From NCBI GenBank assembly GCA_017445315.1, contig JAFSUI010000015.1, forward strand, positions 1 to 39,013: 39,013 nucleotides of DNA, written 5' to 3'. Below the pieces are notes generated by a model that searched no databases, was not told the origin of the DNA, and saw only the letters and a program-made list of their open reading frames with translations. Below are positions 9,093 to 38,000 of the stretch, in pieces. The DNA is from Bacillota bacterium. GTDB lineage: Bacteria; Bacillota; Clostridia; Peptostreptococcales; Anaerovoracaceae. The position numbers and the translations under genes are program-made. Each line of letters starts with the position of its first letter. The first letter of the stretch is position 1.

Positions 9093-10934
9093 ATGGAAAG
9101 AGAAGATTTACTTGATGTTTATCGCCACTCACTGGCACATATCCTTGCAAAGGCGGTAATCGAAATTTTTGGAAAAGAAAATGTGCAGTATGCAATCGGT
9201 CCGGAAGTATCCGATGGTCTTTATTATGACTTCGTTCTTCCGCGCGCCGTAACAAAGGAGGACTTCACTGTTATAGAAGAGAAGATGCACGAGATTATTA
9301 AGCGTAGAGAGGCTTGGCTTCGTCAAGAAATAAGCCGCGAGGATGCTCTTGAGATGTTTAAGGATCAGCGCTTTAAAACGGAGCTCATAGAAGACCTCCC
9401 TGAAGACGAAAAGATTACGATTTACTATACGGGCGAAGACTTTGTCGATCTCTGTAGAGGTCCTCATGTAGATAATTCACAGGAGCTCCTCTCCGCAGCG
9501 TTCCAGCTTAAGTCTGCTTCAGGATCTTACTGGAGAGGCGACGAGCATAATGAACAGCTTCAGAGAATCTATGTCTATGCGTTCCCTGACAAGCAACAGT
9601 TAAAGGATCATCTAAAACTTATACAGGAAGCTCTTGAGCGCGACCACAAGAAACTCGGTCAGCAGCTTGAACTCTTTATGTTTGATGAGACCGCTCCGGG
9701 TATGCCCTACTGGCTACCGAGAGGATGGAGACTATATAACACTCTTATGGACTTCTCAAGGACTCTCCAGGACGAATACGGATACCAGGAAATTTGCGCA
9801 CCGGTATTTAACAACCGCAAGCTCTATTTGATCAGCGGTCACTGGGCACATTATCAAAATAATATGTTTGTAGTTCCAGAACTGGAGAGAGACGAGAACG
9901 GACAGATTCTCCTTGACGAGAACGGTTCTTTCAAGATGAAGCCTGTAGAGGAAGCAGACATCTACTCGGCAAAGCCGATGAACTGCCCTAACGCAATGGT
10001 AGTGTTTAAATCTCAAGTTCGTTCATATAGAGACCTTCCGCTTAGACTTTCTGAAAACAACGTTCTTCACAGAAAGGAAAAATCCGGTCAGCTAAACGGC
10101 CTTCTCCGCGTTCAGGAATTCCGTCAGGATGATGACCATACATTTGTTATGGAGTCGCAGATAGAAGAAGAGATCGGAAAGATCTTTGAACTTACGGATA
10201 AGATTTATTCTACGCTCGGACTATCATATAGAGCAGAGCTTTCTACTCGCCCTGAAGACTTTATGGGCGACATAGAAGTTTGGAACGAAGCCGAAGCTGC
10301 CCTTAAGAAAATTCTTGATGGCAAATACGGTGAGGGCGGATACGAGATTAACGAAGGCGATGGCGCGTTCTACGGACCAAAGATTGACCTTCAGATGAAG
10401 GATGCTCTCGGTCGCGAATGGCAGTGCGGAACGATTCAGCTAGACTTCCAGCTTCCACATAATTTTGAACTTAAATACACAGCACCTGATGGAAGCCTCA
10501 AGCAGCCTATCGTAATCCACAGGGCGCTCTACGGATCGTTCGAAAGATTCATAGCTGTAATCATAGAGAACTTCAAGGGAGCATTCCCCTTCTGGCTTTC
10601 ACCGACACAGGTTGCCGTTGTTCCAATCAAAACAGAACATAACGATTACGCAGAGGTAATCTGCAAACTTCTCCGCGCCAATCGCATTCGCTACGAAGTA
10701 GATTATGAGGACAAAAATATGAACGCCAAAATCAAGACGTTCAAGAACTTCAAGGTGCCTTATATAATCGTTGTTGGCGGACAAGAGGCAGAGAATAGAA
10801 CTGTATCGATAAATGTTCGTGGATCAAATCAGCAACTCAGGAATGTTCCGCTTGATACATTCCTGGATATGTGCGATATGATGAATGAAGAACACTCATT
10901 AGAACTCCTCACCGAGGTCCCCGCAGAGCAATAA
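9093..10934 (+). CDS. thrS: Threonine--tRNA ligase lacking the TGS domain
   Basis: ThrRS charges tRNA-Thr with threonine. The protein has 613 residues. The N2 editing domain starts at once (RHSLAHILAKAV, the HxxxH of the editing site, and the later DLCRGPH). The catalytic core has MNCPNAM (zinc Cys), RVQEFRQDDDHTF (motif 2), FYGPKIDLQMKD and VIHRALYGSFERF (motif 3 region with zinc His). A class-II anticodon-binding domain closes the protein (VAVVPIKTEH onward). The ~60-residue N-terminal TGS domain of E. coli ThrRS is absent: no in-frame start lies further upstream. A GAGGG site precedes ATG 9093. Only 49 AT-rich bases separate it from the kinase, leaving no room for a T-box leader. Confidence 0.96.
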   Translation: MEREDLLDVYRHSLAHILAKAVIEIFGKENVQYAIGPEVSDGLYYDFVLPRAVTKEDFTVIEEKMHEIIKRREAWLRQEISREDALEMFKDQRFKTELIEDLPEDEKITIYYTGEDFVDLCRGPHVDNSQELLSAAFQLKSASGSYWRGDEHNEQLQRIYVYAFPDKQQLKDHLKLIQEALERDHKKLGQQLELFMFDETAPGMPYWLPRGWRLYNTLMDFSRTLQDEYGYQEICAPVFNNRKLYLISGHWAHYQNNMFVVPELERDENGQILLDENGSFKMKPVEEADIYSAKPMNCPNAMVVFKSQVRSYRDLPLRLSENNVLHRKEKSGQLNGLLRVQEFRQDDDHTFVMESQIEEEIGKIFELTDKIYSTLGLSYRAELSTRPEDFMGDIEVWNEAEAALKKILDGKYGEGGYEINEGDGAFYGPKIDLQMKDALGREWQCGTIQLDFQLPHNFELKYTAPDGSLKQPIVIHRALYGSFERFIAVIIENFKGAFPFWLSPTQVAVVPIKTEHNDYAEVICKLLRANRIRYEVDYEDKNMNAKIKTFKNFKVPYIIVVGGQEAENRTVSINVRGSNQQLRNVPLDTFLDMCDMMNEEHSLELLTEVPAEQ

Positions 10935-10938
10935 ACCA

Positions 10939-11212
10939 ACAAGAGCCTTGTCCCTCCTTGGTTGGCTGCACGCACTTTAGTCCTCGGGATGGATAATTAA
11001 TTCCTCAATAAAATTGAACCTCTGGAGGGTTGCATCAAAGCTCGAACCCTTGCGGTACTTCTCTTCCACCAAACAAGTTTGGTATTGAGAAGCCCCGCAA
11101 GACTTCGACTGCTGCCAACCTCACAGAGGTTCTTCTTTTATTTTCGGTTAATTATATTCCATCCCTGCGGAAGGCGTGCCGTGCAACCATCCCAAGAAGG
11201 GCCTTCTCTTGT
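10939..11212. repeat. Long convergent-gene hairpin element, copy 1 (candidate structured or terminator element)
   Basis: The gap between thrS and prsW stops folds on itself. The outer arm ACAAGAG (10939-10945) pairs with CTCTTGT (11206-11212). GGGATGG and ATAATTAA pair with TTAATTAT and CCATCCC. The core GAACCTCTG pairs with CAGAGGTTC (9 bp), followed by TTCTTTTATTTT. Arms 11005-11040 (36 nt) and 11113-11144 (32 nt) are identical to those of the copy at 18049-18294. The 72-nt insert between them is itself a nested hairpin (CTTGCGG/CCGCAAG, ACTTCTC/GAGAAG, ACCAAA/TTTGGT). The T-rich tails fit a bidirectional terminator, but the element is larger than termination needs. Confidence 0.8.
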
Positions 11213-11216
11213 CGGT

Positions 11217-11933
11217 TTATAGTGGGTGGTCTGTAAGCGCTTCTTTCTTTATGGTGCTTATCATCAGTATGTCGATAGCGATAATGAATGCAAAGAATAT
11301 GATTGTCGATAGCGCGGTCTGTTTCATCGCACATGCATCATAGAACCCATGGAGGAATACCGCAACCAGATATGCAAGCTTTCTGTTCACGGACGACTTT
11401 TGATCGTCTCCTCTGTTGGCCCAGAGTCTCGCTCTTCCGTAGAAGACTCCCATAAATACCGCAAAGGACATATGCCCCGGAATTGCAAGGAGCGCTCTCG
11501 TCGGTGCGATTGTTAGACCGTAGCCTGCTACGTATCCGATGTTTTCAAATGCGGCAAACCCGAGTGAGATAAATACAGCATAGATGATTCCGTCAAACCT
11601 AAAATTGAAATGCGGATTCTTCCATGTAATAAGCTTCATGAAGATATACTTTGTTCCCTCTTCAACCACAGCAACAACAAGGAACGCAAGTATTATTACG
11701 TATAGCGGATTGGCGACGCTGATAAAGCGATCTAGCACAGTTATCGCAGCACCTTCCAGTCCACCGGAAACAATTGCAGCAAGAACTCCGAGACCTATGA
11801 GTTTAAACAAAAGTCCCGCGGGTTCTTTTTCTATTGTGTCCTTTCTGTACATATAGAAAAGAAGTAGTGCCGCAGGAAGAACCGCAGCCAATATATAAAC
11901 TATTCCTACAGGTATCAAATTAATATAAAACAA
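11217..11933 (-). CDS. PrsW-family intramembrane metalloprotease
   Basis: PrsW proteases cut membrane substrates; in Bacillus subtilis the substrate is the anti-sigma factor RsiW. The 238-residue protein is almost wholly membrane-embedded with about seven hydrophobic segments. All family motifs are visible: EKEP (residues 35-38), EEGTK (E91, E92, K95), FAAFENIGY (E130), PGHMSF (H154) and HGFYDA (H195). No sigma or anti-sigma gene is nearby, so the substrate is unknown. It starts 2 nt after the stop of the P-type ATPase gene, so the two are translated from one transcript. Its stop lies 5 bp from the long hairpin element shared with the convergent thrS. Confidence 0.9.
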   Translation of the reverse strand: MFYINLIPVGIVYILAAVLPAALLLFYMYRKDTIEKEPAGLLFKLIGLGVLAAIVSGGLEGAAITVLDRFISVANPLYVIILAFLVVAVVEEGTKYIFMKLITWKNPHFNFRFDGIIYAVFISLGFAAFENIGYVAGYGLTIAPTRALLAIPGHMSFAVFMGVFYGRARLWANRGDDQKSSVNRKLAYLVAVFLHGFYDACAMKQTALSTIIFFAFIIAIDILMISTIKKEALTDHPL

Positions 11934-17065: not shown

Positions 17066-18037
17066 ATGAGCAAGAAAATCGTTGTTGTTAAGGCAAAAAG
17101 AGATGAAATTGCCATGAATTTGGTCCACGAAACCGCTGCCAAATATGGTTATACGGCCGAGTTCTATGGAGATCTCGAGGAAGCCAAGCCGCATCTTGAG
17201 GATGCCGAGATCATTCACGGCATGGGCATGGGCCTTCTAAAATACGCGCCGAACGCAAAATGGTATTGCATAGCATCTGCGGGCGTAAATGGCTACGATG
17301 CGGACTATTTTGACGAACGCGGGGTGCTGGTAAGCAATTCAGCAGGCACCTATGGAACGACTATAGCAGAACATATTATCATGATGGCAACCATGATAAT
17401 GCGCCATATGTTTGAATTTGAGGATTGCAGAAAGCAAGGAAAATGGCTCGGCCACCAAGAAATTACGACTGACTTTAGGACTCTCTGCGGAAGCAGGATC
17501 CTTGTTCTCGGAACAGGAAACCTCGGAGCGACCTTTGCGGGAAGAGTAAGAGGGTTTGAGCCTGAATCTATCGTTGGTGTTTCAAGAAGTGGGCGCCCTG
17601 TTTCCGATTTTGACAGGGTTATTAGCATGGATGATTTAGAAAAAGAGCTTCCAAATGCCGACCTTATCGTAATGTGCCTTCCGGGTACTTTAGAGACCGA
17701 AAACGTTCTTAGCCGCGAGAGGATTGCTCTTCTATCAAAGGACGCAATCGTAATAAATGTCGGACGCGGAACTGCAATAGATGAGGATGCACTCGCAGAG
17801 GCTCTGGAAAGCGACAGAATATATGCTGCAGCACTTGATGTATTCAGGGAAGAACCTCTTCCCGAAACGAGCCCTCTCTGGAAGACAAAGAATCTCTATA
17901 TCACACCGCATGTTTCAGGTCAGGAAACTGCACATATTACGCGCGAGCTCAATATGCGCATGTTCTGCGAGGACATAGAGAATTACTGCAACGGAAAGCC
18001 ATTAAAATATGCCGTTGACCTACACCGCGGTTATTAA
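17066..18037 (+). CDS. D-2-hydroxyacid dehydrogenase family protein
   Basis: The 323-residue protein belongs to the NAD(P)-dependent D-2-hydroxyacid dehydrogenase family, which interconverts 2-oxoacids and D-2-hydroxyacids. The Rossmann motif is LGTGNLG (residues 148-154). The catalytic triad is visible: R234 in NVGRGTAIDE, E263 in REEPLPE and H282 in TPHVSG. The substrate-domain loop is SAGVNGYD (71-78). The exact substrate cannot be told; lactate, glyoxylate/hydroxypyruvate and branched 2-oxoacids are possible. It has its own promoter and ends at a long hairpin shared with the convergent DUF3899 gene, so it is monocistronic. Confidence 0.9.
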   Translation: MSKKIVVVKAKRDEIAMNLVHETAAKYGYTAEFYGDLEEAKPHLEDAEIIHGMGMGLLKYAPNAKWYCIASAGVNGYDADYFDERGVLVSNSAGTYGTTIAEHIIMMATMIMRHMFEFEDCRKQGKWLGHQEITTDFRTLCGSRILVLGTGNLGATFAGRVRGFEPESIVGVSRSGRPVSDFDRVISMDDLEKELPNADLIVMCLPGTLETENVLSRERIALLSKDAIVINVGRGTAIDEDALAEALESDRIYAAALDVFREEPLPETSPLWKTKNLYITPHVSGQETAHITRELNMRMFCEDIENYCNGKPLKYAVDLHRGY

Positions 18038-18048
18038 TCATCAAAGCC

Positions 18049-18294
18049 CTTCAGAATGTCGCAAGCAATAAATTGACACACACAAGCCACTTCCACTCGT
18101 CCTCGTAATGGACAATTACAACTTCAATAAAATTGAACCTCTGGAGGGTTGCATCAAAGACTCCTCGCTTACGCTCGTCGCTGATGCCAACCTCACAGAG
18201 GTTCTTCTTTTATTTTGTGTAATTGTTCCCATTACTGCGGAACCGTTCCAGTGACTCTTCGCGTGTCAATTTAATGGCTTATGACATCTTGAAG
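18049..18294. repeat. Long convergent-gene hairpin element, copy 2
   Basis: The same core as at 10939-11212: arms 18124-18159 and 18185-18216 are identical to copy 1, with a 25-nt insert instead of 72 nt. The surrounding stem differs from copy 1 in sequence but keeps pairing: TAATGG and ACAATTAC face GTAATTGT and CCATTA. Outer arms pair AATTGACAC (near 18071) with GTGTCAATT (near 18263) and CTTCAGAATGTC (18049-18060) with GACATCTTGAAG (18283-18294). The last arm covers the final codons of the DUF3899 gene. Likely a bidirectional terminator at least. Confidence 0.8.
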
Positions 18295-18743
18295 AACATT
18301 ATGGTGAATATTCCCGCGATCAAGATGAACGCTATACCTACGAGGACGAGAAACAGAAATGGCGATCTTGGCTTTGCTGCCTTTTCTTCTCTGTACTCAT
18401 AAAAGCTCATTGGCCTCCCCTTCTTGAGCGTGTCCTCTCGGAAACGGAAGAACCATGTAAGCGATTTTATTGCAAAGAACAATCCATCAAACGCACCGTG
18501 GCTTGATACAAAGAGTATCGCACCAAAGCTCGTCATGAGCGCTCCAACAATGAAGAACGCATCAGAAAGTATTCTCACTCTGTCTAGAGACGAAACCGCA
18601 TGGTAGTTTTCCGTAGTGTAATCTATTACCTCAGCATCCCAGAATCCGCGCGACCATACAATTAGAATGACCGCCACAAGACCTGCTATAGCCGCAACTA
18701 CGTATTTTACCCACGCCTTCTCGGGAATATTAGGCTTATTCAT
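18279..18743 (-). CDS. DUF3899-type membrane protein
   Basis: The 154-residue protein has three or so hydrophobic segments (residues ~15-31, ~61-80 and ~128-150). The middle portion FVSSHGAFDGLFFAIKSL followed by a basic, Tyr-rich loop (MSFYEYREEK) fits the DUF3899 family, whose function is unknown. It overlaps the end of oppF by 8 nt, so it is translated from the opp transcript. Whether it works with the transporter is unknown. Its last codons form one arm of the long hairpin element. I am fairly sure it is a real gene and less sure of the family. Confidence 0.7.
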   Translation of the reverse strand: MNKPNIPEKAWVKYVVAAIAGLVAVILIVWSRGFWDAEVIDYTTENYHAVSSLDRVRILSDAFFIVGALMTSFGAILFVSSHGAFDGLFFAIKSLTWFFRFREDTLKKGRPMSFYEYREEKAAKPRSPFLFLVLVGIAFILIAGIFTIMFFKMS

Positions 18744-32632: not shown

Positions 32633-32912
32633 CATTGGGGACGGTTCCACTTGCAAATTTTTTCATCGGGGACGGTTCTACTTGTAAATAGGAGCCGATG
32701 ACTTATACTTTTTTACGCTTCGCAGCAATCGTGGTAATCATTCGCGAGACGAGGTTAACTTTCGTTGGATGTGTGGATCTGTTTGAGCCCGTAGGGCGAG
32801 TTATTCACACTCCCGAAAGTTTCCGAGCCGAGTGATTTGATTACAGATTGCGAGAACTAAAAAAGTATTGAGTCATTGGCGACAAAATTTGCAAGTAGAA
32901 CCGTCCCCAGTG
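32633..32912. mobile_element. MITE-like palindromic element with GGGGACGGTTC terminal inverted repeats
   Basis: The secA-prfB gap is bounded by 26-bp inverted ends: CATTGGGGACGGTTCCACTT at 32633 and the complement of CACTGGGGACGGTTCTACTT at 32887-32912, with 24 of 26 matching. A second direct copy of the left end lies at 32668-32689. The interior continues as an imperfect hairpin: GATGACTTATACTTTTTTA faces TAAAAAAGTATTGAGTC, AACTTTCG faces CGAAAGTT, GTGTG faces CACAC, and GCCC-GTA-GGGC is near the apex. There is no open frame of note. A non-autonomous mobile element is the best explanation. Confidence 0.7.
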
Positions 32913-37237: not shown

Positions 37238-37330
37238 AGTATTTTGTTTTTAAAAAATCCTTTCTTTTCTGTGCTTCTGTTATTCTGTGCTCCGCGATGC
37301 CGCTAGTTTAAACGCACCGCATGCGTGCGG

Positions 37331-37526
37331 TTTTACTCCGCGGCGCCCTGCGTTTTATTCCGCGGCGCCCTGCGTTTTACTGCACGGCGCCCTGCGTTTT
37401 ACTCCGCGGCGCCCTGCGTTTTACTCCGCGGCGCCCTGCGTTTTATTCCGCGGCGCCCTGCTTTTTTTCCGCGGCGCCCTGCTTTTTTTCCGCGGCGCCC
37501 TGCGTTTTACTGCACGGCGCCCTGCG
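37331..37526. repeat. 22-bp GC-rich tandem array (9 units)
   Basis: Nine head-to-tail units of 21-22 bp run TTTTACTCCGCGGCGCCCTG then CG. Each has a T-rich half and a GC half with the palindromes CCGCGG and GGCGCC. Variants in order are ACTCC, ATTCC, ACTGC, ACTCC, ACTCC, ATTCC, TTTCC, TTTCC, ACTGC, suggesting block duplication. Open frames across the array on both strands are side effects of the repeat. It lies ~90 bp upstream of the CNNM gene start. Confidence 0.95.
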
Positions 37527-37622: not shown

Positions 37623-37641
37623 GTTTGACGAGCCACAATGG

Positions 37642-38000
37642 TTTTCTGTGGCAGGGGCGCTTTGTCGTTCAATTTCCCGTGGCAAAGGCACTATTCTGCA
37701 CTTTTGCCACAGGTTTTGGCTTTGCCTCGCTTGTTTTCTGTGGCAGAAGCGCTTTTTGGTTCAATTTCCCGTGGCAAAGGCGCTAATCTGACCTTTTGCC
37801 ACAGGTTTTGGCTTTGCTTCGCTTGTTTTCTGTGGCAGAGGCGCTTTTGGGTTCAATTTCCCGTGGCAAAGGCACTATTCTGCACTTTTGCCACAGGTTT
37901 TGGCTTTGCTCTTGTGGCTTTTCTGTGGCAGGGGCGCTTTATCGTTCAATTTCCCGTGGCAAAGGTGCTGTTTTGCCTTTCTGCCACAGGTTTTGCTGCC
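37642..38000. repeat. 92-93-bp tandem hairpin repeat, array C (4 copies, last incomplete)
   Basis: Copies begin with TTTTCTGTGGCA at 37642, 37734, 37826 and 37919 (periods 92, 92, 93). Each has CTGTGGCA and TGCCACAG, a perfect 8-bp inverted pair, plus an internal CCCGTGGCAAAGG. Read from CACTTTTGCCACAG, a 25-base loop separates TGCCACAG from CTGTGGCA, like the 26-base loop of array B read from CACTTTTGCGAG. The period and the CACTTTT anchor tie it to arrays A and B at the other end of the window. It is non-coding and lies just downstream of the S41 gene. Confidence 0.9.

Follow-up and report, generated by a model that had tools for sequence, protein, structure and literature searches.

The standard way to prove that an RNA fold is under selection is to show compensatory base-pair changes. 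Among described bacterial repeats, the EFAR repeats of Enterococcus faecalis are reportedly palindromic, ~170 bp long and modular, and are said to insert into stem-loops unrelated to them, part of whose stem is retained at the element ends, and the ERIC, YPAL, NEMIS and RUP families are recognised by sequence. EFAR is listed among the bacterial MITEs (PMC3733652), and ERIC, YPAL, NEMIS and RUP are presented as intergenic, transcribed sequences that fold into hairpins affecting neighbouring mRNAs (PMC3733652, PMC1590033). Here we describe a hairpin that is real and that is one member of a large, apparently undescribed family, found in the window (the whole 39,013-nucleotide stretch of DNA analysed), which is one contig of the draft genome G000 (1.34 Mb, 77% complete).

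Within the window, three hairpin copies were identified. Copy 1 has its core at 10979..11174 on the + strand (the strand carrying GTCCTCG), where it matches our covariance model R2 with 124.4 bits (E 8.9e-28), and its locus-specific left outer arm (10939..10978, +) pairs with the right outer arm (11175..11212, +) in the fold; its neighbours are thrS, threonyl-tRNA synthetase (9093..10934, +; PF00587, PF03129, PF07973), and a convergent PrsW-type protease gene (11217..11933, −; PF13367). Copy 2 has its core at 18098..18244 (+; R2 match 136.1 bits, E 1.4e-30) and, in the fold, outer arms at 18066..18097 and 18245..18276 (both +), with a D-2-hydroxyacid dehydrogenase gene (17066..18037, +; PF02826) to its left and a convergent DUF3899 protein gene (18279..18743, −; PF13038) to its right. 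Both copies trained R2, and each folds as a single long hairpin far beyond chance: z is −11.2 over 10939-11217 and −7.3 over 18038-18278, and 0/200 shuffles fold as well in either case. The first-pass annotation had described a hairpin between convergent genes and a second locus sharing its core, with identical arms, a variable interior and paired changes in the stem, and each of these features was recovered: an exact 36-mer at 11005..11040 (+) recurs at 18124-18159, an exact 32-mer at 11113..11144 (+), with a T-rich tract at its end, recurs at 18185-18216, the sequence between them measures 72 nt in copy 1 (11041..11112, +, an apical part that folds as a nested hairpin) and 25 nt in copy 2, and the changes from GG/CC to TA/TA, from T-A to C-G and from A-T to C-G are seen in both folds. 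Scanning yielded one terminator-like match within copy 1, at 11117-11131 (shuffles expect 0.5), and a simple sigma-70 scan yielded no promoter-like site at copies 1 and 2. Copy 3, absent from that annotation, is a divergent core at 32716..32858 (−; R2 match 52.1 bits, E 1.8e-10) that trained no model and is nested between REP-like repeats, such that two repeats (GGGGACGGTTCYACTTG) at 32636..32684 (+) form its outermost left arm and an inverted one at 32892..32909 (−) its outermost right arm. Elsewhere in the window are three tandem arrays (1937-2203, 2218-2475 and 37641-37995) whose units differ and whose period is 92 bp in all three, as well as nine tandem copies of a 22-bp unit, GTTTTACTCCGCGGCGCCCTGC, at 37330-37526.

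Searching with copy 1 by BLAST revealed 22 matching pieces in G000 itself and matches in two more genomes of the genus, G003 and G012 (a 26-nt match in G027 was not counted as a copy), and an exact-pattern scan of named genomes, which may omit the window's own record, placed the core in RGIG8396, an assembly from water-buffalo rumen, and in RUG12197. A first covariance model (R1, built from 24 copies) matched 9 of 13 genus genomes (E ≤ 0.1) and at least 10 of 296 family genomes (E ≤ 1e-4), and the second (R2, built from 35 copies picked for diversity) matched at least 15 of 393 genomes of the order (E ≤ 1e-5), all 15 of which fall in the window's own family; the family-wide and order-wide counts are lower bounds because the best 8-10 candidates per genome were scored. 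One genome, G010, was detected by R2 and missed by R1. Across the fetched loci, 194 R2 matches at E ≤ 0.001 reduced to 135 places and then to 132 distinct cores, a count that excludes window copy 3 and one further batch of loci, and these come from 24 genomes, which represent 8 genera within a single Clostridial family. The host bacteria of this family are uncultured, some of them from rumen. This model-based search of relatives, proposed in the first-pass annotation, brought in copies with far more covariation, and no match to a known Rfam family emerged to remove the hairpin's novelty: no hairpin match exceeded the gathering threshold in the window or in six loci with diverse copies, and of the weak matches at copy 1 the highest-scoring was to a microRNA model (MIR1031, 24.3 bits vs a threshold of 100). 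A literature search, mostly judged from listings, led us to recognise no published description of the hairpin family. Separately, 13 IMG/VR stretches that fit a loose core pattern were considered as a sign of viral origin; folding showed no copy in them, and the fits were taken as chance.

To size the covariation, we aligned 35 copies (alignment A4), in which 96.1% of cells pair and 37 of 39 pairs have changed on both sides, a level of pairing and covariation reached by 0/500 shuffles. Because A4 includes copies that trained R1, we made a separate alignment, A7, of 30 copies from other genera that trained neither R1 nor R2; there, 86.0% of cells pair, against 34-45% in slid registers, 38 of 39 pairs have changed on both sides, and the observed pairing or covariation score was again reached by 0/500 shuffles. 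Fitting to the structure biases both alignments towards it, by an amount that the slid controls show. In A7, pairing is weak in helix 1, at 75.2% of cells, and in helix 3, at 60.8%. G-T pairs are rare, at 15 of 1324 cells in A4 (L134 and L135 omitted).

The first-pass annotation had taken covariation as strong evidence for a selected fold, and this does not hold by itself for the arms of a long palindrome, because template switching also yields double changes. Comparing each copy with its nearest neighbour, we counted 146 double changes vs 80 half-changed pairs (18 G-T) in A4, 108 vs 77 (14 G-T) in A7, and 33 vs 32 (4 G-T) in A2. Double transversions, which cannot go via G-U, made up 30-42% of the double changes (44/146, 45/108 and 11/33, respectively). 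Runs of at least two adjacent double changes, given here as raw counts, numbered 30/112 in A4, 22/79 in A7 and 4/29 in A2, and isolated double changes dominated (82 of the 112 runs in A4). Among 17 ortholog pairs of copies at shared sites, representing 9 distinct sites, 6 pairs, falling at 3 sites, have the element in opposite orientations with respect to its two flanking genes (L020/L175, L004/L176, L083/L109, L015/L109, L015/L202 and L083/L202, with flanking genes read directly for six loci of these pairs), and the cores of L083/L109 are 93% alike. The reported marks of template switching between inverted repeats are double changes, arm homogenisation and spacer inversion (PMC8794818, PMC8604942). 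Double changes and inverted middles are both present in the hairpin family, and from them we infer that template switching helps to keep the arms complementary. Half-changed pairs are also present, so stepwise change occurs as well, and they are not rare, which leaves room for stepwise compensation. As a further observation, the rpe-like, thrS and tsf-like sites of G000, G003 and G012 carry few apical-loop types, which are nearly identical among the G003 copies and unlike those at the corresponding sites of the other species, a pattern that suggests within-genome homogenisation.

Unpaired motifs shared by several genera are better evidence for selection than arm covariation. With ≤1 mismatch, 83 of 132 copies carry a 5'-terminal GTCCTCG (vs 0.8 in shuffles), 82 a 3'-terminal CTGCGGAA (vs 0.5) and 40 an apical ACTC..TCANACA (vs 0.2), counts to be read knowing that R1 and R2 contain all three and that motif-bearing copies are therefore easier to detect; the terminal motifs are absent from some 50 of the 132 copies. 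In the folds, the unpaired motifs sit opposite each other across internal loops, and the same mismatched internal loops recur across genera. Template switching would erase such loops, so their persistence suggests selection.

Beyond the core, each locus carries its own arms, which are complementary to each other. When arms were also combined across loci, an arm's own partner outpaired 99% of the cross-locus combinations in 48 of 52 copies over the 30 nt nearest the core, in 22/51 at 25-65 nt, in 7/50 at 40-80 nt and in 1/50 at 60-100 nt (L129 and copies with short flanks omitted); called gene ends lie mostly ~20-50 nt from the core. At the thrS site of G000, G003 and G012, the arms are unlike between species yet paired in each. 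Mapping the outer arms of five ortholog pairs revealed that 147 of 343 pairs had shifted register, with the remainder divided into 135 that stayed the same, 14 with both sides changed, 26 that pair in a single species and 21 that pair in neither. We also considered that the outer arms are remnants of ordinary terminators, which found no support at the sole clear empty site (G012, L017), where the terminator stem differs from the filled-site arms.

The gene context of the copies was evaluated with a simple ORF method that is unreliable for short genes. Where both neighbours could be called, 72 of 116 copies lie between convergent genes (a raw share), 36 between co-directional genes and 8 between divergent genes, the divergent calls being provisional, and a further 16 copies could not be assigned. 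The co-directional copies split 15 and 21 by orientation, without clear preference. After the inner stem, 34/35 copies of A4 have at least 6 T in 12 nt on one strand and 27/35 on the other, and by the stricter count (6 T in 8 nt, for which 11% of all element positions qualify) the numbers are 32/35 and 24/35. The corresponding T-tract in A7, from other genera, is weak, at 9/30 and 5/30 by strand for 6 T in 8 nt, with 10% of all element positions qualifying. The L017 site has the same two neighbours in three genomes; the element lies there in G000 and G003, and an ordinary palindromic hairpin with A- and T-runs in G012. Downstream of an hppA-like gene (this and similar gene names are our reading of the sequence), G003 and G012 have an ordinary terminator, at a place where the other neighbour is unlike that in G000, and in other species simple hairpins follow thrS, several with T-runs (judged by eye, with the next gene checked in some only). 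With T-rich tracts on both strands in A4, convergent sites and an ordinary terminator standing in the element's place, the earlier suggestion of a bidirectional terminator family gains some support.

A strand bias was seen in genus g1, where isolated mismatches read on the GTCCTCG strand are more often A-C than G-T in the outer arms (70 vs 29) and in the core (45 vs 7), related copies not being independent in these counts and L195 and L197 being omitted. Other genera were without clear mismatch bias (25 to 21, and 11 to 5). On the opposite strand, the A-C excess reads as a preference for G-U, which would be expected if that strand folded, whether as RNA or as single-stranded DNA, and it points to selection on one strand's fold, which an orientation-free terminator does not predict.

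Evidence for mobility comes from copy number and from repeats that bound one subfamily. We found 33 copies in G003, 20 in G000 and 4 in G012, counts drawn from assemblies that are 77-85% complete, with 8 sites common to G000 and G003. Three composites from unrelated parts of G000 share 95-98% identity over 179-248 nt, and window copy 3 is of this kind (core plus REP-like repeats). The REP-like repeat (≤1 mismatch) occurs at 77 places in G000, 1 in G012 and 0 in the other 11 genus genomes; among 20 stretches fetched around it, 7 hold an R2 core (one cut by the stretch end), and, by eye, five hold a short repeat palindrome but no core and one an internally deleted form. Terminal repeats are seen only in this REP-bounded subfamily. 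Given the near-identical composites and the REP palindromes with and without core, at least the REP-linked subfamily appears, from these comparisons, to have moved recently, and together with the variable copy numbers the composites strengthen the earlier proposal of a mobile palindromic element. A RAYT as mobiliser was ruled against, as no Y1_Tnp gene was found in the incomplete assemblies of G000, G003 and G012 (4 of 13 genus genomes have one). An integron attC site was likewise rejected: attC boxes are RYYYAAC and GTTRRRY at the two ends, and none of the 132 copies had the box pair, whichever order was searched (shuffles average 0.24 for the first order). We also note that several G000 contigs (the start of C7 and the ends of C33, C21 and C14) end inside or near hairpin copies; the first ~40 nt of C7 are a reversed repeat of a gene end further downstream, which may be an assembly fold-back. 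In RGIG8396, L084 is an apparent solo left half without a right arm, a possible deletion product.

We interpret the family, with a probability of roughly 0.5, as a dispersed, non-autonomous palindromic element that would serve as a bidirectional 3'-end or terminator hairpin in either orientation, its arms kept complementary in part by template switching. The element consists of a core of ~120-200 nt plus outer arms and lies just after stop codons. The inner stem, standing between an A-tract and a T-tract, would as RNA end transcription from either side, which would make orientation immaterial, and a copy and an ordinary bidirectional terminator could stand in for each other. Template switching in replication would keep the long arms complementary and sometimes invert the middle, selection would hold the unpaired motifs, and copies would spread, one G000 subfamily doing so together with a REP-like repeat. 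Termination does not explain the long outer arms and conserved loops, because an intrinsic terminator needs only a short stem. In an alternative reading, the element would work as a folded single DNA strand that a transposase or recombinase recognises, with the loops as the code and termination as a by-product, much as attC sites and IS200/IS605 ends are folded-strand recognition sites. The survival of loop motifs on largely replaced stems, the free orientation, the differing copy numbers among close species (incomplete assemblies notwithstanding) and a g1 mismatch bias that ties folding to the element's strand and not to its neighbours all fit such a site. However, the mostly convergent placement is not required of a mobile site, the attC box pair is absent from all 132 copies, and the one transposase gene searched for, Y1_Tnp, was not found in the three incomplete assemblies; we regard this reading as possible but on the whole unlikely. 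A broader version of the idea, a new class of non-autonomous mobile element recognised by the unpaired-loop code of a folded single strand of DNA or RNA, with stems rewritten by template switching, is more doubtful still; were it true, the loop-code element would be inherited as shape and not as sequence, its stems holding little sequence information.

An RNA that acts in trans or as a regulator, its structure bound by protein via the internal loops, would account for the strong covariation in the held-out copies of A7, for the excess of the apical motif over shuffles, and for the g1 strand bias, which fits RNA made from the strand opposite GTCCTCG. The first-pass annotation had offered a structured RNA among its readings, but a strand-specific version is unlikely as the main function because the element occurs both ways round at corresponding sites, and the near-even split beside co-directional genes, the rarity of G-T pairs in A4 and the lack of a promoter-like site at copies 1 and 2 in the sigma-70 scan also count against such an RNA, which we consider improbable. 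Neutral palindromes maintained solely by template switching, without a selected function, would produce few G-T intermediates, double transversions and inverted middles, as observed; yet switching would erase the internal loops that recur across genera, and the copies are concentrated at gene 3' ends, making this the kind of account we would give very little weight. Of all these readings, an orientation-free terminator or 3'-end hairpin borne by a dispersed palindrome has the best support as a working model, with the recurrent loops and the g1 strand bias leaving room for the folded-strand site.

That template switching can also make compensatory changes renders the standard proof of a fold ambiguous, and the ~130 copies, a number of which occupy sites that related species have in common, form a natural data set for separating selection from switching. 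Insertion into stem-loops, as reported for EFAR, would explain the locus-specific outer arms. REP palindromes both with and without core exist in G000; at the one other empty site, in G012, the ordinary stem is not the filled-site outer arm. Compared by description only, EFAR also differs in that the hairpin family's stems covary across genera with recurrent loops. ERIC, YPAL, NEMIS and RUP are likewise intergenic hairpin elements, whereas in the hairpin family the shape and the loops carry over from genus to genus and most of the stem sequence does not. Like REP, BIME and REPIN sequences, the copies are extragenic palindromes, some in inverted pairs (L163, L164, L209) or in tandem (L207), and one subfamily is bounded by REP-like repeats, but the hairpins are much larger and, unlike systems with a RAYT, are accompanied by no Y1_Tnp gene in G000, G003 and G012. 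The inverted arrangement consists of two copies facing each other, plus then minus, across a short gap (also at L211 and L131), and L207 has three tandem copies. Finally, the hairpins share with bidirectional intrinsic terminators the A-tract, stem and T-tract as well as the position, and such a terminator stands in the element's place at the L017 site, such that an undescribed palindrome family can occupy a place where a relative has an ordinary terminator; they differ from it in their arms reaching 40-60 nt past the core, their recurrent loops and their kinship as a repeat family.
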